DNA of 64,000 nt, from positions 147,501 to 211,500 of the forward strand of contig VCJN01001326.1 in NCBI GenBank assembly GCA_006384855.1, in the 5' to 3' direction. Shown here piece by piece: positions 1,306 through 14,700 of the stretch (positions within the stretch are counted from its first letter, which is position 1; each line of letters opens with the position of its first letter). The DNA is from Tetraselmis striata. Lineage: Eukaryota; Chlorophyta; Chlorodendrophyceae; Chlorodendrales; Chlorodendraceae. The notes under the pieces are model-generated. The model made no database searches. It saw only the letters and a program-made list of their open reading frames with translations, and was not told the DNA's origin. Position numbers and translations under genes: made by a program.

Positions 1306-2095
1306 CACTTACAGAAACCTAGAAACTAGAAATAACCCAACCATGATAGCGACAGAATTCGGCGGGAATAAGAGGTGTCTGGTAACAAAACACTTACGCG
1401 TACGACTCGTCTGGCCCAAGCTATGAATAACTCCGACTGTAACGCCGCTATGCATGTTGCGTCGCACATGATATGTATGAGGCACGCACGTGCATTGTAA
1501 CACTTGCAGTAATAAGATAAAAGTGGCGTAAAAACCACCACTGATCACACCGTGGCACCATTACACGCCGTGGGAGGTTAAACACCGCCATATCAAATAT
1601 ATTCATATACTTAAAAGCAACATGCGACGGGAGCTATCGGGAATAACGCTCGGAGCGTTGAACATGAACATGCGCGGGAACGAGAGGAGCATACAATGGG
1701 TCGAAAGAAGCATAGGAGCGCAAAGCTACACATGTAGCGGCGGGGGCGCAATCAAGGCTGACCAAACATAAGTGCGACGTCACACCGGGATACATGCCCA
1801 ACCCGCTACCACGGCACGCTACGCCACACCCCCGTTTTGTATTTTTCTGAAAGATACCAGCTATAACCTACCATTGCCTGAAAGGAGAACAACATGCCGG
1901 AGGGGGCGGGGGAGCTCGTACCTGTTGGAGACGTGGGCCCGCCCAAGCCAAAGAGAGGGGCGGCACCATGTATTATGCCGACTTGACCATATATAAGCCC
2001 CGACGAGGATGGGGACATAACCAGTTAAGGGAGGGAGTACCACGCCGTAGGCATCCACCAAGGGCAGATGTTATACTCCATTTCCCTTTAGCCAT
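1306..2095. other. No recognisable gene
   Basis: The sequence has mixed base composition and short frames on both strands without family resemblance. It is probably intergenic or the far flank of the retrotransposon that follows. Confidence 0.45.
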
Positions 2096-2326
2096 AATGT
2101 TCTGCTATACTAGCAGGTATTACCCCCCGCAAAGGTAGTACGACTACGCATCCGCGGAGTCGCTGTACATATTAGTATTGCGGGCGTAAATATTAGTAGT
2201 ATAAGGCCGAAGACTGTTCTGGAATCCTCTAGAGTTCTCTGACTCAAGCCTTACGTGGCTAACACAGCACCGGTATCCCATGACACCCGGCTAACATAGC
2301 ACAGGTATGACTATGACCTCGGCGGG

Positions 2327-2334
2327 TATAAATA
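2327..2334 (+). promoter_or_regulatory. Probable LTR TATA box
   Basis: TATAAATA sits about 150 bp before the inferred primer-binding site, where an LTR promoter is expected. Its use is inferred from position only. Confidence 0.45.
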
Positions 2335-2483
2335 CCGCCTCGGACAAGTCTACTAGGTAGAATTCAGAGACAGAACTATAACCCAGGAACCCCTGTAACC
2401 AGAAGAGATTGGCCATACTTTCTAAATCCTTCCGCTGCATCCTAAAGGGCCTAAAGAACAGGCTTAAGCTAGAGCCTAACACT

Positions 2484-2495
2484 TGGTTTCGGAGC
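2484..2495 (+). other. Probable primer-binding site (tRNA-Met-like)
   Basis: TGGTTTCGGAGC differs at two positions from TGGTATCAGAGC, the usual initiator-tRNA-Met primer site of plant-type retrotransposons. It lies 2 nt after a CA that would end the 5' LTR and 25 nt before the gag start. Confidence 0.5.
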
Positions 2496-2520
2496 TTAGA
2501 CAGCGGTAAGCGACGTAAAG

Positions 2521-3507
2521 ATGGCTACACCAGGAGAGACGCCACCTGAGGACAGCGGAAGCTTTCCGGTAGCGGCCACTGCCGGCGAAGCACAGCCGAT
2601 TCCGCTTGAAGGAGGTCAAGAGGGCACGCAACCGACCCTCGCAAACATGATGAGCATGCTTCAACGACTAGCCGACCGAGTCGAGACTATGTCGACGGAG
2701 CAAGCGAAGATGCAAGATGTAGCACAAGCGACAACGGCGGCAACGGCGGAGATTCGCCGCTTGGACGAGTACGTGCGACAAGGCTTTAGTCATTTCGACG
2801 ACCGAGTGAACCGGAGCCGAGTTGTAGAGCAGCAGATGCGAGACCAGCTTCGTTCTGCCCGGACCAGCGACATGCCTTGGCTCATGCCGAGCGATGTGAA
2901 ACCAGCGAAGATCGAGAAGCTATCGACTACGAATATCGACGAGCTACGGAACTGGTTTCGTCATGCACGGGGTTACCTGAAATATCACAACGTAAACCCG
3001 GAGGAACCTCGTAGCGTGTACTGGGCATCTGGCTATTTTCACGGACCTGTATCCAAGTGGTGGTACGCGCAAGTGGCGAGTACGCACGACGAAATTGGCG
3101 GCGGTTTTACCGGTATTACACACATGGAGGCGGCACTAATCACCGAATTCTGTGGACGTACACCGGCGAAGCAAGCTCGTATCAATCTGGATCGCGCGAC
3201 ACAGCGGACTACAGTACAGAAGTACGCGAATTATTTCCGCGAGCAACTACTGGAGTCACCCCATCGTCACGAGGAAGATAATGTACATGACTTCCAGCGC
3301 GGATTGAAACCCCATATTCGAAAGGAAGTTGCCCTGAAAAACCCTAAGACCCTGGCAGAAGTTGTACATGCAGCTCTGGCTGTTCAAGCTGCAGAGCGGG
3401 AGACAGATGTGCACCGCGAGATCCGTCGCGAGCGCCTGAACATCATGGACGACGATGGCGACGACGACGAGCAGTACTACAGCAGTGCTGAGGGTGAGGC
3501 TACATAA
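2521..3507 (+). CDS. Retrotransposon Gag (capsid part)
   Basis: This encodes 328 residues of a Ty3/gypsy Gag, the structural protein that packages retrotransposon RNA in the cytoplasm. A coiled-coil-like stretch at about residues 40-95 precedes a capsid core (about 120-285) with the typical W-F, W-W and RFLxxF-like spacing, including KWWYAQV and a YANYFREQL segment. The C terminus is acidic. The frame ends with TAA at 3505-3507, but the same frame continues after the stop into a CCHC zinc knuckle, so the stop splits capsid from nucleocapsid. It could be a point mutation or a read-through site (the context is TAA CAA); mutation is more likely given the other lesions. The ATG at 2521 follows closely on the primer-binding site. 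Confidence 0.88.
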   Translation: MATPGETPPEDSGSFPVAATAGEAQPIPLEGGQEGTQPTLANMMSMLQRLADRVETMSTEQAKMQDVAQATTAATAEIRRLDEYVRQGFSHFDDRVNRSRVVEQQMRDQLRSARTSDMPWLMPSDVKPAKIEKLSTTNIDELRNWFRHARGYLKYHNVNPEEPRSVYWASGYFHGPVSKWWYAQVASTHDEIGGGFTGITHMEAALITEFCGRTPAKQARINLDRATQRTTVQKYANYFREQLLESPHRHEEDNVHDFQRGLKPHIRKEVALKNPKTLAEVVHAALAVQAAERETDVHREIRRERLNIMDDDGDDDEQYYSSAEGEAT

Positions 3508-3681
3508 CAAGAAGACGACCTGTTGATGGCGCGGCGATTGACCGAGGAGGAGTTTGAGAGATATAAGAAGGAAGGTCGCTGCTTTATCTGCAGGGCGAAA
3601 GGTCATGTTGCGTCCGCGTGCCCGAGCAAGAAGAAGAAGATTTCCGAGTATCGACCCAGAAAGACCCGGCCGGGAAACTAA
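3508..3681 (+). pseudogene. Gag nucleocapsid, CCHC zinc knuckle
   Basis: This continues the gag frame after the TAA at 3505. It encodes a basic stretch and a perfect CX2CX4HX4C knuckle (CFICRAKGHVASAC, 3580-3621), then a lysine run, and stops at 3679-3681. The knuckle would bind the element's RNA. The next frame (from about 3618) overlaps it in the -1 register across a run of AAG codons, consistent with either programmed frameshifting or an indel. Confidence 0.85.
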
Positions 3682-4748
3682 GACGCGAGTCGGCCGCGCG
3701 CGGCGCGCGACAGGGTGAAGGACTGTCCCCTAAAACGGCTCGCGAGACTACAGAAGTACAGCCCTCGTATCCTCGAACGACACTGAGGCCTGATTTCCTC
3801 CACAAGGATTTCAGCGACTGGATGGTACATCGCGAATTATTTCACAAGTACACGAAGAAATACGGACCCTGCGACCTGGACGGAGCTTGCGATTATGCCG
3901 GCATGAATTCTCAAGTTTCTGGTAGTTTTTGCTGTCCGACGCGCCCATTTCAGGAACAGGATCTCGGAGACTATCGGCGTATTTGGCTAAATGCCCCGTA
4001 TGACCGAATTGAAGAATTTTTGGGCCACTACCTTCGACAGAAGTTATTGCATCCGCATCTACGAGCAATTATTGTGGTCCCAAAATGGTCGCGTAAGCCG
4101 TGGTTTCGATTACTTAGAAATTTTCGTCTGGTGGATGAGTTGCCAGCGGAGACTTCTGTGTTTACGTGTCCAACAAACGATGGCATAGAAGGTGCGAGAC
4201 AAGATGTTGGCCCCACTCGATGGGCGACACAGATCTACGCTGACGTTGGCGCCGGCGTACGGTTTCTACCGCAGCACCTGAGAACCCCACCGAAGCATGA
4301 GTGGACGCACTCGAAGGTTCTAGTAACCGATGGAAGACGAGTGCTTCTGACTGTAGAAGACAGCGGACTGATTTGGTTTCCAGAAGGCAAGCGCGGCGAC
4401 ACGGACGCGACGCCGGAGACAACAGCAGTACGACGATTACTCGAGCAAACTGGGTACCGGGTACAGGAGAGCAATCTACGGTACCTCGGCACTCAGCGGA
4501 CGGGAGACAACCGGTGTCCTGTGTACCTGTATCGCGCTCGTCGTAAGACTGTACCTGCGAAGACCCCTTTGAACCGTGCACTATGGACAACCTGGAAGAA
4601 ATTATTGGAGGCACGAAGTACGGGTTATCTGGAGACGGAGACAGTACGCTACCACCCACTACGGTACGAAAGCTTCGGCGAACAAATTGATGAATATGTC
4701 AACCGTAACGTCCGACTACCTGGCGAAGACTCCACATCGCGTTTGTAA
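3618..4748 (+). CDS. Retrotransposon polyprotein segment: Dam-like methyltransferase fold plus Nudix-like box
   Basis: A 376-codon frame lies between nucleocapsid and protease, where Ty3 elements normally carry nothing of this size. Residues about 58-185 resemble the phage-type Dam N6-adenine methyltransferase family: a CDLDGACDYAG stretch, a FQEQDLGDYRRIWLNAPY stretch in which NAPY occupies the place of the catalytic NPPY/DPPY, and IIVVPKW after it. Residues about 231-310 read like a Nudix hydrolase domain, with FPEGKRG and then a degraded Nudix box, PETTAVRRLLEQTGY, where two catalytic glutamates of the REUXEE core are R and Q. Both active sites look compromised, so a structural or binding role, or simple decay, is possible. 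The last codons and stop come from the SINE inserted at 4747; before that insertion the frame ran on into the protease. Domain calls are from motif reading only. Confidence 0.7.
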   Translation: MPEQEEEDFRVSTQKDPAGKLRRESAARGARQGEGLSPKTARETTEVQPSYPRTTLRPDFLHKDFSDWMVHRELFHKYTKKYGPCDLDGACDYAGMNSQVSGSFCCPTRPFQEQDLGDYRRIWLNAPYDRIEEFLGHYLRQKLLHPHLRAIIVVPKWSRKPWFRLLRNFRLVDELPAETSVFTCPTNDGIEGARQDVGPTRWATQIYADVGAGVRFLPQHLRTPPKHEWTHSKVLVTDGRRVLLTVEDSGLIWFPEGKRGDTDATPETTAVRRLLEQTGYRVQESNLRYLGTQRTGDNRCPVYLYRARRKTVPAKTPLNRALWTTWKKLLEARSTGYLETETVRYHPLRYESFGEQIDEYVNRNVRLPGEDSTSRL

Positions 4749-4999
4749 AAGTAAAGTAAAGTTCGCCCCGGGACATCGGCCGAAGCCGCCCCAGCACTTG
4801 ACCTCGTGCGCCAACTGCAGTCGTAGGTCTGGCATAGCCCATAGACCATTGCCTCATTCGAACCCCGAAGGGCTAATGCATCAACCGAGTAAACCCGGGA
4901 CACGCCGGGCCGATATTGCCGAAGTACATCGGCCAGGAATCGAACCCGGTACCTCTCGCACACGAGACGACCGCTCTACCGAGCGGACAAGGGATGTAC
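4747..4999 (-). mobile_element. Full-length tRNA-derived SINE
   Basis: This is a 253-bp insertion flanked by a perfect 12-bp target duplication, CATCGCGTTTGT (4735-4746 and 5000-5011). Read on the minus strand, the 5' end is tRNA-like: an A-box-like GCTCGGTAGAGCGG and a perfect B box GGTTCGATTCC, typical RNA polymerase III promoter boxes. A tRNA-unrelated body follows, ending in repeats of ACTTT. It interrupts the retrotransposon polyprotein. Related copies lie at 60371-60577 (5' truncated) and 40885-40928 (only the last 44 bp). Confidence 0.9.
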
Positions 5000-5011
5000 C
5001 ATCGCGTTTGT

Positions 5012-5445
5012 GCAACGTATCTTCACCGAGTGGTACCCGACTACTGACTATTACTGGCGAATTGCGAGGACGACACTGTAAAATACTGGTGGACTCTGGT
5101 GCAACCGAAAATTTTGCGAGTACTGAATGGGTACAATTGCATCAGTGCCCTACAGTATCCGGAGGAAAACACCGTATAAAACTGGCGAACGGCAGTATGA
5201 GTACCAGTACCAAACGGCTGAGGAGCGAAGTACTTACCGTAGGAGCTTTCGACTATAAATTGGACGCAATAGTTACAGACCTGGAGAAATTCGACATTAT
5301 TCTCGGACAACCTTGGCTGGAAACAGTTAATCCTGACATCGACTGGACTGCTAAAATTATCAAACACCGGAAGACTGGACAACACATTGCTACAGCGGAA
5401 CAGTATACAGTACCTACGACGGTTTACCGCCTGGACGCGGCTTAG
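5012..5445 (+). CDS. Retrotransposon aspartic protease (retropepsin)
   Basis: This segment matures the Gag-Pol polyprotein. The catalytic DSGATENF motif begins at 5092, and the flap and C-terminal hydrophobic motif ILGQPWLE follows about 60 residues later, the usual spacing for Ty3/gypsy proteases. It has no start of its own: removing the SINE restores one frame from the Nudix-like region into this protease. A TAG at 5443-5445 ends it, immediately followed by ATG in the same frame and the reverse transcriptase, so protease and polymerase are separated by a single stop codon. Confidence 0.9.
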
Positions 5446-6631
5446 ATGGCGAAGGAACTGAGGAAGAGTCGCGGCGAGGAACTGTTTGCTGTTGCGGTAC
5501 GCGAGGTGTTCGATGCGGTAGCTGAGCTGCGCACGGACCAGTCGACCGAGTGGACCGAGGAGCTCAAGGAGTCCCTTATGGAGTTTGCAGACATCATCGC
5601 GGAGCCTACTGACCTGCCACCGGAGCGCGAGTTCGACTTTGAGATCAACCTGGAGAGTGATGAACCCCCCAAGGAACGAACGTACCGTATGTCACCAGCA
5701 GAGTTGCAAGAGGTACGGTCACAACTGGAGGAATTGTTGGCAAAAGGGTGGATTCGTCCGTCCAAGTCAAACTACGGCGCCACAATTTTATTTGTACGTA
5801 AGAAAGACGCACGGCACTCTGCGTATGTGTGTGGACTGCCGTAAATTGAATGATCTTACGAAGAAAGACCGGACCCCGCTTCCTCGTATCGACGAATTAT
5901 TGGACTCATTGCATGGTGCGACTACTTTCAGTACTCTGGACATGTACAAAGGCTACCATCAAGTACGAATTAAACCGGAAGACATCCACAAAACAGCGTT
6001 CCGGACACACTATGGACTCTACGAGTACTGTGTGTTACCTTTCGGGTTGACAAACGCCCCAGCTGGATTCCAGACCATGATGAACCGTGTTTTGAGCCCA
6101 TATCTCGGCAAATTCTGCGTGGTATACCTGGACGACGTGCTGATCTACAGCAAGACAGCTGAAGAGCATCTCGAGCACATCATATTGGTGCTACGGGAGT
6201 TGCAACGACACCACTTGCATATCAAGCTGTCGAAGTGTTCGTTCGGCCGTACTAGCGTGGAGTTTTTGGGCCATATCGTCGAAGCAGGACAGATCAAGAT
6301 GGACCCCCGGAAGGTGGAAGCAGTTCAACAGTGGCCCGTGCCGAAGACAATAAAGGACGTACGAGGTTTTCTCGGCCTTGCTGGCTATTACCGCAAGTTC
6401 ATCCATAACTTCGCGGCTATTGCGGCGCCACTACATGACCTGACGAAGAATCAACCGGAGTTTGTGTGGACGCCTCGTGCTGATGCAGCGTTTCGTGCAT
6501 TAAAGGACGCAATGGTACGAGCACCTGTACTGAGTATACCGGACACATCTGCGGACGCCCGTTACACATTGTATACAGATGCTTCTGGATTTGCAGTGGG
6601 AGCAGTGCTGCTGCAAGATCAAGGCTCATGA
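5446..6631 (+). pseudogene. Retrotransposon reverse transcriptase and RNase H start
   Basis: The N-terminal part (5446 to about 5810) carries the YRMSPAEL and GWIRPSKS motifs of Ty3 reverse transcriptases. A frameshift at about 5795-5815 moves the reading into the next frame, which holds the CRKLN, LDMYKGYHQV, PFGLTNAP and catalytic YLDDVLIYS motifs (YLDD at 6124-6135), then the connection and the first RNase H motif YTDASGFAVG. A TGA at 6629-6631 interrupts RNase H in frame. The enzyme would copy element RNA into DNA; this copy cannot make an intact protein. Confidence 0.93.
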
Positions 6632-7541
6632 CTTCGACCTGTCGCGTACCATGCACGCAAGATGAACAAACACGAAGTTCACTACCCGGTACATGAGCAA
6701 GAGTTGTTAGCGGTTCGTGATGCACTCATCAAGTTCCGATGCTACCTTGATGGAGCGGCGGGCTTTACGGTCATCACCGACCATGACACACTACGGCACT
6801 TCTTTCGCCAACGCGATTTGTCGACACGGCAAGTACGATGGTTGCAAGTGTTTGCGCCTTACCAACGACATATGGACATCGTCTACAAGCGAGGAGCTGC
6901 CAATCATGCGGACGCCCTCTCTCGGCGACCCGACTTGAAGGATGCGCTACAGAAGCTAGATCTGCTGAACAACTGGTCAGAAGACGAGGCTGACTGCGAA
7001 ATAAATTCAGTTTTATTTGCTATGGAGTCGCGACTACATGCGGACAACAAGTTTTACGACGAAATCAAGACCGCATATGACTCCGACGAGTACCTGAAAT
7101 TGCGGAAGGCTTTACCATCCTTGCTAGTACGTCACAGTAATGGTCTACTGTACGCCTACGGCTCCCGACTTTACGTACCAAATGTGGCGGACCTGCGACA
7201 ACGAGCACTGTACGAACTACATGACGCGCCTACTGCTGGACACCCAGGAGGACGACGACTACTGGCGCGTACTGTGGAACTGTACTGGTGGCCCCGTATG
7301 AAACAGACTGTCACTAACTACGTGTGACGCTGCCCTGCCTGTCAACGTACTAAGGCGGCCCGGCATAAGCCATACGGCTTACTTCAGCCCCATGACGTAC
7401 CGTCACGACCATTTGAGGTAATATCCCTGGATTTAATCTCAGATCTTCCGGAGTGCCAGGGGTATGACTCAGTAGTGATTTTCGTATGTCTACTGTCAAA
7501 GCGAGTTATTGCCCATGCTCCTTGTGCATACATGCTGCAGT
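6632..7541 (+). pseudogene. Retrotransposon RNase H end and truncated integrase
   Basis: The same frame as the reverse transcriptase resumes after the TGA. It covers the rest of RNase H (HEQELLAV, ITDHDTL, ADALSR) and the integrase N-terminal HHCC zinc finger; the second half of the finger, CPAC, lies just after another in-frame TGA at 7325-7327. The integrase core starts with ISLDLISDLP, carrying the first catalytic Asp, but the second Asp and Glu are missing because the element ends near 7541. Confidence 0.9.
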
Positions 7542-7544
7542 GAT

Positions 7545-8340
7545 GCTATCACACCGCCTGTGGAGCGACTGAAGTCCAAGTACAAGGACGGCCGCGTACA
7601 CAAGTACCGCTACGAGGTGGAGCAACGGGAGAGCCACGCCACCTATCGGCAGCACTTCAACGCGGTGGACATCAACAACAAGCTGAGTGTGGGCCCCCAC
7701 TTTGTTGCCACTGGCTGGGGCCCCCCGTAGTGTTGTGCTCCGGTTCTGGCTGTACACCGTTGCAGTGGCCGAATCCAACGCCTACCTGTGCTACACTTCT
7801 TTCACCAACAACAAGGACATGACGCGTCATGAGTGGAAGTGCGCCATGGCGGACGCGCTGGTTGCGGAGGGGAGGGCTGAGATGATGGGCTCTGCATCTG
7901 GCCTGCACAACACCTCGCCTGTCCCCCGCAGCCGTGCAACTACCCGCAGCTCAAAGAGCTCTCATTGCAGTGCTCCTAGTCCCTTTGATACTGAGACAGG
8001 TGACGGACCCTCTGGAGTGCCCCGCGCGTTTGATGAGGGCTGGCGCACAAAAGGCACCAAGCGCACAACTACAATGTACTCCGCTCCCATCCCTGAGAAC
8101 ACCCCCAGCAAGTTCAAGGATGGCAAAGAACGCGCCAAGCGTAGGCAGTGTGTGGAATGCCGCCGCAACCTGGTCCGTAGCATTTGCTCTGACTGCGGCG
8201 CCCCTGTGTGCTCATCCCTCTGCACCCGCCGCCCATGCTTCGCCAGGCATATTGCAGCCCACCTGCAGGCGGATGGATGGGCCAAGATTGGACCCGCCAA
8301 CCCTCCCAGCATCAACACCAACCGTGTACTGGACATGTAA
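7545..8340 (+). pseudogene. piggyBac-like transposase, C-terminal fragment
   Basis: This looks like the end of a piggyBac (DDE_Tnp_1_7) transposase. A stretch with HFNAVDINNKLSVG corresponds to the family's GVDxxD-type region. After a frameshift in a C run near 7720-7730 comes FWLYTVAVAESNAYLCYTSF (the usual hydrophobic helix) and a C-terminal Cys/His zinc-ribbon-like region, RRQCVECRR, then CSDCGAPVCSSLCTRRPCF and a histidine. It stops with TAA at 8338-8340. The N-terminal half and the first catalytic Asp are absent, and the left end abuts the broken Ty3 integrase directly. Confidence 0.72.
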
Positions 8341-9255: not shown

Positions 9256-10996
9256 CTAGTTCAGCCACTCGTCGTCCTGATCTATGTAGGCAGGGTTCAG
9301 CTCGTCCTCGCCCTGTTCCCCATCCTCCTTTTCCTCCTTCTCTATCTCGTCCTCGCCTTCCTCACTGTCGCTGCTATCAAAAAACGCGCATTTCGTCGCA
9401 CGCATCTTGGCGCTCGCGCGCACTTGAATCTTGCCATGCGGCGATCTTAGCGTCCGCAACCTTGACGTGGGCACCTAGCACACTTAGCTCAGCTTCAGCC
9501 ACGGCTTCGGCTAACTCTGTCTTGCGGCACTTGGCGTTCGCCGCCTCCTCCTCTGCCTTGTTTACTTGCTGCTCCTTCTTTTCTTCTGCCTTCGCTGCTG
9601 TCTCCAAGGCAGCGCCAGCCCTCTGCAAAGTTGCTGGCCTCACCTTCTTGGGTAGCTTGGGTTCGGGCAGGCCGCCTGCTGCAGCCTGCAAGGCTCCTTG
9701 GAGCGTTGCATGCGCGGGGTTGTCAGGGCTCTCTTCTGCGCTGAGGGTTGCAGTCAGCGCGCACTCCGCCGCAATAACCATGGTGTGCCCGCTGGATAAA
9801 AATCCACACATAAATGTAAGATGATAATTGCAAGTTTCTCATGCCATATTTTGAGCTGGTAGAAGTCGCTAAGTGCAAGCTAGCTTACTCACCTGAAGTT
9901 GTCAATGATCAGCAATATTTTGCCTGTGCGGCGTAGTTCCTCTGTGTAGGGCAGGAACACCGTCTCTACCCAGTAGTGGTAGAGGTCGCCGTCCATCCAC
10001 GCATTCTTCTGTGTTGTAAGCTCGGCGTCCCTCAGAATGGTGTTTGATAAGTCTAGCTTGTCCCACCAATCTGGCATGTTTTTCCCCTTCACAATAAAAA
10101 GAGGTGGAAGCTGTGTGCCATCAGCGACAATGACAGATAGGTTACTGATGGAGAACCGCGATGCGTTCTGCAACGTGTGTGTACGTTTGGCCCCCTTCCT
10201 GGTGATGACCCGCTCCACTCTCCCATCAGGTCTAAAAGAGGTCTCATCTAGATTGTAGATTCGGCTAGGATCTAGCGGACCATGTTCTTTCTCAAATTCA
10301 GCGATGGCATTGTATAGTGTGAGCATATCCTTTTCTGGTTACAAGCCATCGCTTGGGGTCAAAGCGGTCAGCTACCCGCGCTCGCAGCTCAGGGTGGCGG
10401 CGCATGAAACCGCGAAACCATTTTCTAGACATCTTCCCTCGTTTGATCCAGATCTTGGCGACAGGGTCTTTATCATAGCCACGGCTTTAAATGATGTCCA
10501 GTGCGTGCTTCTTGACGGCTCGCTCGCTTAGCGCCAGCCCACGGTCTGCCCGGATCAAGACGTACTTTGCCAGCGACGATTCGTCCTCACTGGTCATGGT
10601 TGTTGGTCGGGTTCCAGCAGCAACAACATGAGTCTTGCCCTGTTTCATAGCCTGTCTCGCCCTCTTGACAGCAGTGATAAGCGTCGTTCTGTTCACGCCA
10701 CAGCTCTTTGCAGCTTTGGCCGGCTTTTAGACACCATCAAGAACAAGTTTGACAGCATGCTCCAGCGCGCGCTTCGCCTTCTCACCGACGTTGTAGTCAC
10801 CTCGAGCGTTAGAGGGGTCACTCGACTGACTGAGGGGTTCTTTACGGGGTCGACCTCGCCCACGTTTTGCGTCGGTGGCGGCCTTGCGGGTTGCCGTCTG
10901 CTTCTTGGGTGGGCGGCCAGACGAGCGCGCTGAGAATTGTCCCGACCTTTCCCTCGTACGACCGCGCATCGCGGCGCGCGATGGCCCACCCGCCAT
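9256..10996 (-). pseudogene. Tigger/pogo-like DDE transposase with intron
   Basis: Read right to left: an N terminus with an AT-hook (KRGRGRPRKEP), a psq-type helix-turn-helix (AAKSCGVNRTTLITAVKRAR), a CENP-B/Tigger second DNA-binding region (KWFRGFMRRHPELRAR) and the DDE_1 catalytic core with IYNLDETSF and LLIIDNF. A clean 101-bp GT-AG intron (9892-9792) joins IDNF to SGHTMVIAA. The C terminus is coiled-coil and acidic, ending DDEWLN at 9256. In-frame stops follow the AT-hook region (near 10724) and the helix-turn-helix region (near 10484), there is a frameshift near 10330, and one extra T in a T run (9379-9384) breaks the tail. The third catalytic residue is not evident. It would mobilise a Tigger-type DNA transposon; this copy is dead. 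Confidence 0.82.
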
Positions 10997-11757: not shown

Positions 11758-14700
11758 TCACTCACACGGAGTGCCATATACGGGGCACAACCCATAGGTG
11801 GCGCGATGTCCCAAAGCATCACATGCCCCGCACTTGGCGGCCGTCCTTTTGCTGGTCGGCGGCCCAGCCAACGGAGGCCTCCGTGAAGCTCCTGTCGGAG
11901 GCTGCGACGTTACGCCGTAGCTGCTGGCCGCCTGGCTGCACACGGGGTCGGCAGCGTGTTGCTGCACTAACTCGGCCAAGGGTTGCTGCGACGGAGCTTG
12001 GCGGGTCTCCTCTGGCTGATGTGACGGGAGGCTGGACTCCGCCGAGGCCTCGGTATGCTGCCCAGGTCGGTTATTGCCTGCCTGCTCCCAGCTGTCGCCT
12101 TGCCCTGTCGCGTGAAAGTATAAGGTGGAGCCGTAGCCCGCGAGAGTTGCATACGGCGTTTGACGCCGAGGGCTCCCTAAGGCCTGCCCTTGTGCTGGAG
12201 AAGAGGGGGGTTGGCCACAGGGAGGTAAGCAATCTTGGTCCTGCACTTTGTCTTTTTGGAGGACAACAAAGGGGTTGCTGCGCCCATTGTTGATTGTGCA
12301 CTTGGTATAGATGACGTAGAGCGCGTGCGCTGCTGAGGCCGCGGATGTCAAATGTAGGTCCGCAAGTGCCTCTGTAATGCTGCTGAAGCGAGGAAGGCCG
12401 GCCAAGTCTGCGCCCCTCTCCAGCTCGATGGTGTGACCTGCACCATTAGGGCGCATGATTATGCTTCATACATTCCCAGAAATCGCACCCACATACTTGA
12501 GTACATGGGCGATGGAGGGCTATTGCACTTTCCATGCTGTTACTAAATAATCCGTACAACATATCCAAGGCAGAGGGGGCGCGGGCGGACGTCACATACG
12601 TATTTGGGGCGGTGCGCGGGGGCACGGGCAGGTGGACGCCAGATATATATTATCACGCTGGTGGTGAATTGATAAAGCCGGTGTGTGCCAGAGGCGCAGT
12701 GTACGTATTTGGGGCGATGCGCGGGGGTGCGGGCAGGTGGACGCCAGATATATACAACCACGCTGGTGGTGAATTGATAAAGCCGGTGGACGCCAGAGGC
12801 GCAGAATACGTATTTCGGGCGATGCGCGAGGGCGCGGACTGGTGGACGCCAGATATATATTATCACGCTGGTGGTGAATTGATAAAGCCGGTGTGTGCCA
12901 GAGGCGCAGTGTACGTATTTGGGGCGATGCGCGGGGGCGCGGACTGGTGGGCGCCAGATATATATATATAACCACGCTGGTGGTGAATTGATAAAGCCGG
13001 TGTGTGCCAGAGGCGCAGTGTACGTATTTGGGGCGATGCGCGGGGGTGCGGGCAGGTGGACGCCAGATATATATAACCACGCTGGTGGTGAATTGATAAA
13101 GCCGGTGGGCGCCAGAGGCGCAGTATACGTATTTGGAGCGGTGCGCGGGGGCGCGGACTGGTGGGCGCCAGATATATATTATCACGCTGGTGGTGAATTG
13201 ATAAAGCCGGTGTGTGCCAGAGGCGCAGTGTACGTATTTGGGCGGTGCGCGGGGGCGCGGACTGGTGGGCGCCAGATATATATAACCACGCTGGTGGTGA
13301 ATTGATAAAGCCGGTGGGCGCCAGACGCGCAGTATACGTATTTGGAGCGGTGCGCGGGGGCGCGGACTGGCGGTGGGCGCCAGATATATATTATCACGCA
13401 TGTGGCGATGGGCGTCGTGCAGGCAAGGGGTGGGGACTACCTGATGGGACGCATGGGCGGTCTTGTTTCATGTTGCAAAGGGCGACGCCGTAAATATCAG
13501 ATGCTTGGACCTGCTTCAATGCCTTGTTCAAAACATAGTTTGTCAGGTTGGAGCGCAACTTGTCGTTCACTGCGGGGATGACCGTCTTCGCAAAGTTTGT
13601 TGCCAGCTGGGGGTTCATGCTGGTGCGCGCATCGGCATGAACGGTTCTCGCTTCCTCCCACTGCTCATTGAGCAGCATTACCTCCCTAAGAAGCTTGTGG
13701 AGGGGAGTGTTCTTGCGAAGGTTGCGAAGGTGCCGCTTCATCAAAAAGTTTGGTGCTTTTCCGCGCTGCGTGGACCGGCATCCAGCAGTGAAGACACGTT
13801 GGCCCAGTACTTTGCATTGTCGGTCAGCTCCTTGTTTAGATACAATGCGCACTCGGGGTAGCATTGCTGTAGGGACTGATACAGCGCCTCGAATGCCCCT
13901 TCAGAAATCTGAGCACGCGCGATGGCGAAGTCCCTGGAGAGCTGCTTGTTGCGCTGGCCAAGGCGAGCAGCGAGATTCTTGCAAAGGTTCTTGTAAATGT
14001 GCCAGATGCGCCACTGGATGGATGCATGTCTGAACACCAGCTCAGCGGCAGCTGTTGCTCCAGGGTCAGCGTCGATGAAGATAACACCAAGGCAGATATC
14101 AGTGCCGCGTAGAAAGGTTTACTGCCACTCGTAGTCCACAGTCCCCTCACGTAGCGCCTAACCTTGCACGAGGCTGACAGTATGCCCATTCCTACGCAAA
14201 CGATGTATGTTAGTCACATGTGCATTACCGCATAAGCTTGTTTTCAACAAAGACAAACAATGGTGTGGCAACACACAATTGCATGCTAGGAACTTGTCCA
14301 GAGCCGTGACGAGGCCTAGGGCCCGAATTGGGTGGTCAGGTAGGTATTGTCGTGGATTAGCAAAGAAAGAATGTCTGCGGCTCACTTTCGTTGTTTTGGG
14401 AACATCCATAATAGATGTTTCAGCCTCTTCTTGCAGTCCACTATGTAAACCACCACCCACTGGTCGCCATGTCACTTGCTAGCAGGGTGGATAGCAGAGT
14501 GTGCGAATCATGTGTCTCACCCTTGGGCATGCCACCGATGTTCTTGATGTCCTTGGAATTGAAAGAGGTCAGCCTGCTCAGGAACGCCTGCCGGCATCGG
14601 TATGCTCTTCTCCAAACAGTAGCGAGTGCAGGAAAGAGGTAATTATGGACGTGTTTTCGAAGTTGTGTACCGCCTCGAAAGCGATCTGGCATATATGGTG

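Follow-up and report, generated by a model that had tools for sequence, protein, structure and literature searches.

A Ty3-type LTR retrotransposon of the green alga Tetraselmis striata bears a Dam homologue and then a Nudix homologue at the start of Pol, between the CCHC knuckle and the protease. This Dam-Nudix module is a property of the element family, and relatives of independent origin have it too. Of the two domains, Dam is more widespread and more constrained, with Nudix situated between Dam and the protease in one lineage. The module lies in a damaged copy of the element (2069–7511, + strand) within the whole 64,000-nt stretch of DNA analysed (the window).

The window copy and its family in the host genome

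The window copy runs on the + strand from a 5' LTR to a truncated integrase, with interrupted frames, and is similar to another copy in the genome (C2863) from the 5' LTR onward, ending at 7511. The 5' LTR (2069–2481; TGTTAT...CTAACA) matches the LTRs of the C2863 copy, which are ~412 bp each and share 98.5% identity; no second (3') LTR was found across the window. Gag through the CCHC knuckle (2521–3621, knuckle at 3580–3621) was placed using Pfam and landmarks and contains an in-frame TAA (3505–3507). Within gag, positions 2521–3504 matched Retrotrans_gag at 25.2 bits (cut-off 24.1) and Ty3_capsid at 26.5 bits (cut-off 29.1). A putative -1 frameshift heptamer, GGGAAAC, is located at 3672–3678, just 5' of the gag stop codon. 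The open frame holding both domains (3567–4748) contains the Dam-like adenine methyltransferase domain (3789–4235) and the Nudix domain with its degenerate box (4236–4745), the border between them being approximate and set by alignment. Further downstream are a retroviral-type aspartic protease (5044–5442; RVP_2, 39.2 bits; DSGATE at 5092–5109) and, in interrupted frames, RT, RNase H and the integrase zinc-binding domain (5522–7327; RVT_1, RT_RNaseH, RT_RNaseH_2 and Integrase_H2C2).

The window frame stops after Nudix because a SINE-like insertion of ~250 bp (~4747–4999, strand unassigned) splits Nudix from the protease. The insert is flanked by a 12-bp duplication, CATCGCGTTTGT (4735–4746 and 5000–5011), and is missing in copy L002, whose Nudix domain reads directly into the protease. 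By eye, the insert with its duplications (4735–5011) includes minus-strand sequence resembling a tRNA; ARAGORN called no tRNA between 4700 and 5060, and Rfam gave no match at gathering score anywhere in the window.

The host genome comprises 224 Mb in 2903 contigs and has 63 chlorophyll a/b-binding matches. One of these, compared with PDB structures, scored highest against a Euglena LHCI chain when two domains were summed and, for individual domains, against chlorophyll a/b proteins such as 6kac of Chlamydomonas, which makes a green-algal host very likely. A search for intact copies, as recommended in the first-pass annotation of this DNA, was performed in this genome. It yielded 125 scored copies from 1129 candidates, the window copy included, with the others 94–97% identical to the window copy over Dam-Nudix. 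A 1539-aa Pol frame was present in 49 of the 125 copies, one of the 49 with a read-through stop. In the C2863 copy, gag encodes 386 aa and ends after the CCHC knuckle, and Pol follows the order Dam-Nudix-protease-RT-RNase H-integrase and also matches SH3_Tf2-1. Direct LTRs, a gag with capsid and CCHC knuckle, and the protease-RT-RNase H-integrase order are those of Ty3-type elements (Metaviridae). The integrase of this family matched rve and H2C2, and its Chromo match scored 16.4 bits (cut-off 25.1) as compared to 32.0 bits, above cut-off, for a second family (L039). No target-site duplication was seen for the C2863 copy.

The junction of gag and pol was also examined. In the C2863 copy, pol is in the -1 frame with a 34-nt overlap with gag, and GGGAAAC lies directly 5' of the gag stop. 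The heptamer and stop were found together in 29/29 pattern-matched junctions (40 loci inspected), these copies being near-identical. RNA folding downstream of GGGAAAC was no better than in shuffled sequences (z = 0.49). From its position, GGGAAAC is a candidate site for -1 frameshifting from gag into pol.

Domain assignments, motif states and selection

The first-pass annotation had read a phage-Dam-like layout followed by a Nudix-like box in positions 3789–4548. Both assignments are supported by profile comparisons. Window positions 3789–4250 matched Dam (PF05869) with E = 3.6e-6 and 27.2 bits, against a cut-off of 28.1, and the Dam domain of sister copy L032 scored 30.1 bits, above that cut-off. 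Positions 4251–4745 matched NUDIX (PF00293) with E = 9.6e-7 and 29.3 bits, above the cut-off of 21.1 and hence a Nudix superfamily score, and the Nudix domain of relative P0001 reached 42.0 bits (E = 1.2e-10), also above cut-off. As other members pass the cut-off of each family, the Dam and Nudix matches exceed chance. The Nudix domain was found to extend beyond 4548, to ~4745, so the borders are wider than those of the first-pass annotation. An hhalign comparison of the window-family Dam with an RNase H-linked retroelement Dam gave a probability of 98.8. The P0001 Nudix domain matched Ap4A hydrolase and RNA pyrophosphohydrolase. Across 49 alignment members, many of which are fragments, Pfam at E ≤0.01 matched NUDIX in five and Dam in 16. 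Relative P0055 scored only 21.1 bits for Dam in Pfam and lacked any NUDIX match at E ≤0.1, and matches in PHROGs were weak for both the Dam and Nudix kinds.

Structure prediction, likewise recommended at first pass, gave low-confidence support for the Nudix half of the region. An initial AlphaFold model, from a 12-row alignment, had a mean pLDDT of 39 and was set aside. A second model was built from 49 rows (i.e. the window sequence and 48 of 53 relatives, with P0043, P0048, P0050, P0052 and P0053 omitted); its mean pLDDT was 47, with the Nudix part alone usable and the Dam part of low confidence. The best eight Foldseek matches to this model were all Nudix proteins, the Foldseek/VIA rows spanning residues ~188–307 only. 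The structural matches thus add to the profile evidence for Nudix, within the low confidence of the model.

The Dam landmarks are a motif-I-like DLDGA (3873–3887), NAPY (3990–4001) and GPTRW (4209–4223), all on the + strand. NAPY occupies the place of Dam motif IV, (D/N)PP(Y/F), from which it departs at the second residue. The Nudix landmarks are WFPEGK (4374–4391) and RRLLEQTGY (4431–4457); the latter departs from the hydrolase signature GX5EX7REUXEEXGU, with the first and third of the three Glu ligands being Arg and Gln in the window lineage. Loss of two metal-binding Glu residues had been recognized at first pass, where both odd motifs were regarded as apparently inactive sites that might be due to decay of this copy or be a family trait.

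Motif states were counted in 38 host-genome copies, including that of the window, after alignment to L002, and in 53 relatives from the protein database, mostly short metagenome fragments; P0055 was retrieved separately and lies outside these counts. Motif IV was NAPY in 35 of the 36 readable own copies and NPPY in one, while DLDGA and the motif IV Asn and aromatic residue were retained in all 36. The box RRLLEQTGY was present in 35/37 readable own copies, the remaining two varying at other residues. Among the relatives, 16 of 24 readable sequences had NAPF (14) or NAPY (2), and the other eight all differed from one another. The full Nudix Glu triad was intact in one of 29 readable relatives, P0001; the middle Glu was retained in 27, the first in two and the third in one, so the first and third Glu are replaced in nearly all readable relatives. 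Decay of the window copy as the source of the odd motifs was therefore rejected, since own copies and relatives carry them too, and they are a family trait.

Some sequences had other Nudix boxes. P0001 has a complete REUXEEXGU, but Leu stands in place of the first Glu, that of GX5E. L079, an older copy in the host genome with pieces 73–83% identical, has RRISEKTGY. P0055, an independent 860-aa open frame whose identity to L002 is 64% in Dam, 53% in Nudix, 50% in the protease and 75% in RT, combines NAPY with RALLDGTGY, in which all three Glu are gone. Since P0001 among the 29 readable relatives retains the full triad, the Nudix signature is read as canonical once and then lost across most of the lineage along different routes, on the basis of these alignments. 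The label 'inactive' is fair for Nudix, with its first and third Glu replaced, but weak for Dam, because NAPY and NAPF retain the Asn, the last (third-position) Pro and the aromatic Tyr or Phe of NPPY, and because NPPY occurs in one sister copy and NPPF in another family. An N-x-P-[YF] sequence is motif IV in active adenine-N6 rRNA dimethylases.

Purifying selection, the check proposed at first pass, was assessed using 29 copies picked by protease DNA and not by Dam or Nudix similarity, with the window copy excluded. Variants in at least two copies were taken as mostly having passed through transposition. For these shared variants, nonsynonymous:synonymous (N:S) counts in the 29 copies were 1:7 in Dam (P = 0.0004), 5:7 in Nudix (P = 0.028), 0:7 in the protease and 5:12 in RT; for all 38 copies they were 2:7 (P = 0.0014), 5:10 (P = 0.0022), 0:9 and 5:17, respectively. 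The corresponding pN/pS values were 0.05–0.10 for Dam and 0.2–0.3 for Nudix, with the Nudix result in 29 copies marginal at a transition bias of 5 (P = 0.049). Singleton N:S counts in the 29 copies were 16:4 in Dam, 25:14 in Nudix, 2:5 in the protease and 24:33 in RT. Singletons thus appear neutral in Dam and Nudix, unlike those of RT and the protease, which argues against the module having been strongly constrained of late; RT was under more constraint. Shared and single variants differed in Dam (Fisher, P = 0.0019) and not significantly in Nudix (P = 0.2). Against L079, dN/dS was 0.17 for Dam, 0.39 for Nudix and 0.28 for the protease part. These comparisons indicate purifying selection that is clear for Dam and weaker for Nudix, and we read the long-term identity constraint on Nudix as similar to that on the protease.

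Dam without Nudix in other families

A Pfam search of the host genome gave at least 122 Dam matches (best 150 of 777 candidates scored), which were set beside at least 150 protease matches (best 150 of 741 candidates scored). At least 20 Dam-protease pairs were on the same strand with Dam 345–414 bp upstream of the protease, and no other Dam-protease arrangement within 2.5 kb occurred among the matches listed. In family L039/L040, Dam (motif FINPVY) is followed by protease, RT, RNase H, integrase and chromodomain, with no match to Nudix. In family L086/L087, a Dam with WLNPPFE closely precedes the protease and leaves no space for Nudix in the 851-bp stretches read. L039 and L002 are 41% identical in protease-RT (492 aa compared), and their Dam domains are 26% identical (141 aa, E = 1e-10).

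As Dam occurs without Nudix in these two families, the domains were probably acquired separately rather than as one unit, and Dam is probably the older partner, judging from this distribution. The first-pass description of a side-by-side module thus holds for the arrangement, in that both domains adjoin, and probably not for a joint gain. Trees of Dam, bearing on single or multiple capture by Ty3 elements, did not settle on one topology. With 21 selected rows, the Ty3 Dams did not form one group, being separated from the rest by a single branch in 19% of bootstrap replicates; with 16 of these rows they grouped (100%), with a non-discriminating AU test (p = 0.51) and long branches flagged.

The module was also searched for in other collections. 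Pattern searches gave 21 matches in viral_contigs and 52 in GTDB genomes, none confirmed as the module, and tblastn of phages with P0001 gave a single weak match, to Nudix only; all relatives, P0055 included, were from the protein database. As to the source of Nudix, P0001 showed only weak similarity when compared with six Nudix loci of the host genome (best E = 1.7e-4). A higher-scoring Nudix locus, C633, was considered as a family member and rejected as unrelated to the family.

Several other Dam-bearing frames were observed. RNase H-Dam frames are also present in the host genome; L033, L035, L037, L038, L042 and other 696-aa frames have the order RT-RNase H-Dam with NAPF as motif IV, so the window-type departure from NPPF occurs in a second retroelement lineage. 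L017, L019 and L021 are free-standing 193-aa Dam-like frames with NPPF (46.9, 45.9 and 43.5 bits, respectively) that the tree places at a distance from the Dams of retroelements. In L039 (972–1094; C31 of the host genome), gag and pol share one frame split by a TGA in AAATGACGG, a context that would suggest stop-codon readthrough in place of the frameshift of the window family.

Candidate functions, precedents and flanking sequence

The best explanation, to which we give an even chance, is a Pol-linked adenine-N6 methyltransferase acting on the cDNA or RNA of the element, together with a Nudix pseudoenzyme. Frameshifting by -1 at the terminal GGGAAAC of gag would yield Dam-Nudix in Pol amounts, the element protease would excise it, and the particle would carry it along with RT. 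Given its position between the gag end and the protease, the module would be translated solely within Gag-Pol and would be present in particles while reverse transcription takes place. Dam would then methylate N6 of adenines in nascent cDNA or genomic RNA, and the methylated new copy could escape treatment as foreign or gain an active-chromatin mark. In Chlamydomonas, 6mA is reported to recur periodically about the starts of transcription (PMC6245762), from which a methylated newcomer might resemble active chromatin. The Nudix domain probably began as a nucleotide- or RNA-end-cleaning pyrophosphohydrolase beside RT, comparable to the dUTPase of other retroelements, and in the window lineage may be a pseudoenzyme retained for binding, folding or processing. 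Tentatively, and with considerable doubt, a self-marking lineage can be proposed in which the Pol methyltransferase writes 6mA on particle cDNA and the former hydrolase is now a selected pseudoenzyme. Insertions would then arrive with an active-chromatin mark in an alga with 6mA near active promoters, and the Nudix pseudoenzyme would correspond, in a retrotransposon, to the dUTPase-like domains of retroviruses that function although non-catalytic.

Both domains could be non-catalytic, serving as nucleic-acid or nucleotide binding and spacing modules that aid RNA packaging, RT processivity or protease release, a reading that holds a substantial minority of our confidence. Such modules would fit NAPY or NAPF in place of NPPY in 16/24 readable relatives, NPVY in L039, and purifying selection despite a Nudix Glu triad that is intact in only 1/29 readable relatives; there is also a precedent in the inactive lentiviral dUTPase-related domain that is still needed (PMC4261571). 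Retention of DLDGA and the motif IV Asn and aromatic in 36/36 readable own copies, canonical NPPY in L032 and NPPF in L086/L087, and the stronger constraint on Dam than on Nudix argue instead for a catalytic Dam. At the opposite extreme, Dam would methylate and Nudix would hydrolyse oxidised or unusual nucleotides or RNA ends via a rearranged metal site. The full REUXEEXGU of P0001, its matches to Ap4A hydrolase and RNA pyrophosphohydrolase, and the middle Glu in 27/29 relatives are compatible with two active enzymes, but this is unlikely given Arg and Gln at two of three ligands in 35/37 readable window-lineage copies and the lack of all three Glu in P0055.

Selection and gene order weigh against the module being a functionless passenger of a successful element, which we consider very unlikely. 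Neutral-looking singletons in Dam and Nudix and a Nudix signature eroding along several routes are as a passenger would have them, but amino-acid changes are depleted among shared variants, dN/dS is 0.17 for Dam and 0.39 for Nudix, P0055 retains its frame with identity at a protease-like level, and the Dam-protease order holds in 20/20 pairs among the matches listed. Least credible of all is a misassignment, with the region adopting a different fold. The window Dam score is slightly under the Pfam cut-off and the model has low confidence over Dam; against this are members of each family above cut-off, the hhalign probability of 98.8 to an RNase H-linked Dam and eight top Foldseek matches that are all Nudix. 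Selection seems to have retained both domains, which points to possible chemical marking or protection, by elements of this kind, of the DNA copies they make. Loss of Nudix metal ligands with continued selection against amino-acid change resembles the inactive yet needed dUTPase-like domains of retroviruses.

Capture of accessory domains by Ty3 elements is already known; as far as searched, the Dam-Nudix combination, and Nudix itself, appear undescribed. The comparisons that follow rest on parts of the cited papers. DIRS1-like retrotransposons have an RT-RNase H-MT order with a Dam-type methyltransferase, the MT function being unknown (PMC3266345); they share a homologous Dam in Pol with the window family (hhalign probability 98.8). 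In DIRS elements, however, Dam comes after RNase H and a tyrosine recombinase is present, whereas the window-family Dam precedes the protease and is accompanied by a DDE integrase, direct LTRs and Nudix. KnitGypsy-Dnmt3 of Klebsormidium is a Ty3 element with a cytosine methyltransferase (PMC5890265), and is thus similarly a Ty3/Gypsy-captured methyltransferase under purifying selection; its enzyme is of DNMT3 type, unrelated to Dam, and Nudix is unmentioned in the parts covered. According to the same parts, retrotransposon cytosine methyltransferases methylate DNA de novo and cDNA self-methylation has been proposed. PosPlaTy3-3 of Postia placenta, a Ty3 element, likewise has a nucleotide-metabolism domain at the Pol amino terminus (PMC2864245), but this is a dUTPase of different fold and family, with no methyltransferase mentioned in the passages covered. 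The dUTPase-related domain of bovine immunodeficiency virus, non-catalytic and needed for replication (PMC4261571), is also a nucleotide-enzyme homologue inside a retroelement polyprotein; having another fold and belonging to an animal lentivirus, it is a precedent only. Ty3/Gypsy elements of orchids that carry an AlkB-type m6A demethylase (PMC9289625) have similarly captured an N6-adenine methylation enzyme, but one for the opposite reaction, in a separate ORF outside Pol.

The sections of PMC6338049 covered place DAM in DIRS, and cytosine methylases in DIRS as well as Ty3/Gypsy. One sentence there gives both methylase kinds for the 'Ty3/Gypsy and DIRS clades' jointly, so a Dam-bearing Ty3 element may already be on record. 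Within the partial coverage of open-access PMC literature, no description was found of Dam before the protease of a Ty3 element or of Nudix in a retrotransposon polyprotein. Enzyme domains captured by retroelements are often of unknown role, the DIRS Dam being a long-standing example. In a single algal genome, three families have Dam at one fixed position, ahead of the protease, with open frames in many copies, which makes the question of whether retroelements methylate their own DNA directly testable.

Sequences 3' of the element were also inspected. A 217-aa open frame with a cysteine-rich end (7687–8340) lies immediately 3' of the truncated retrotransposon and had no Pfam match at E 0.01. 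A DDE_1 (PF03184) transposase fragment is present on the minus strand at 9889–10338 (36.9 bits), and a tandem array with a period of ~105 bp occupies 12538–13347.
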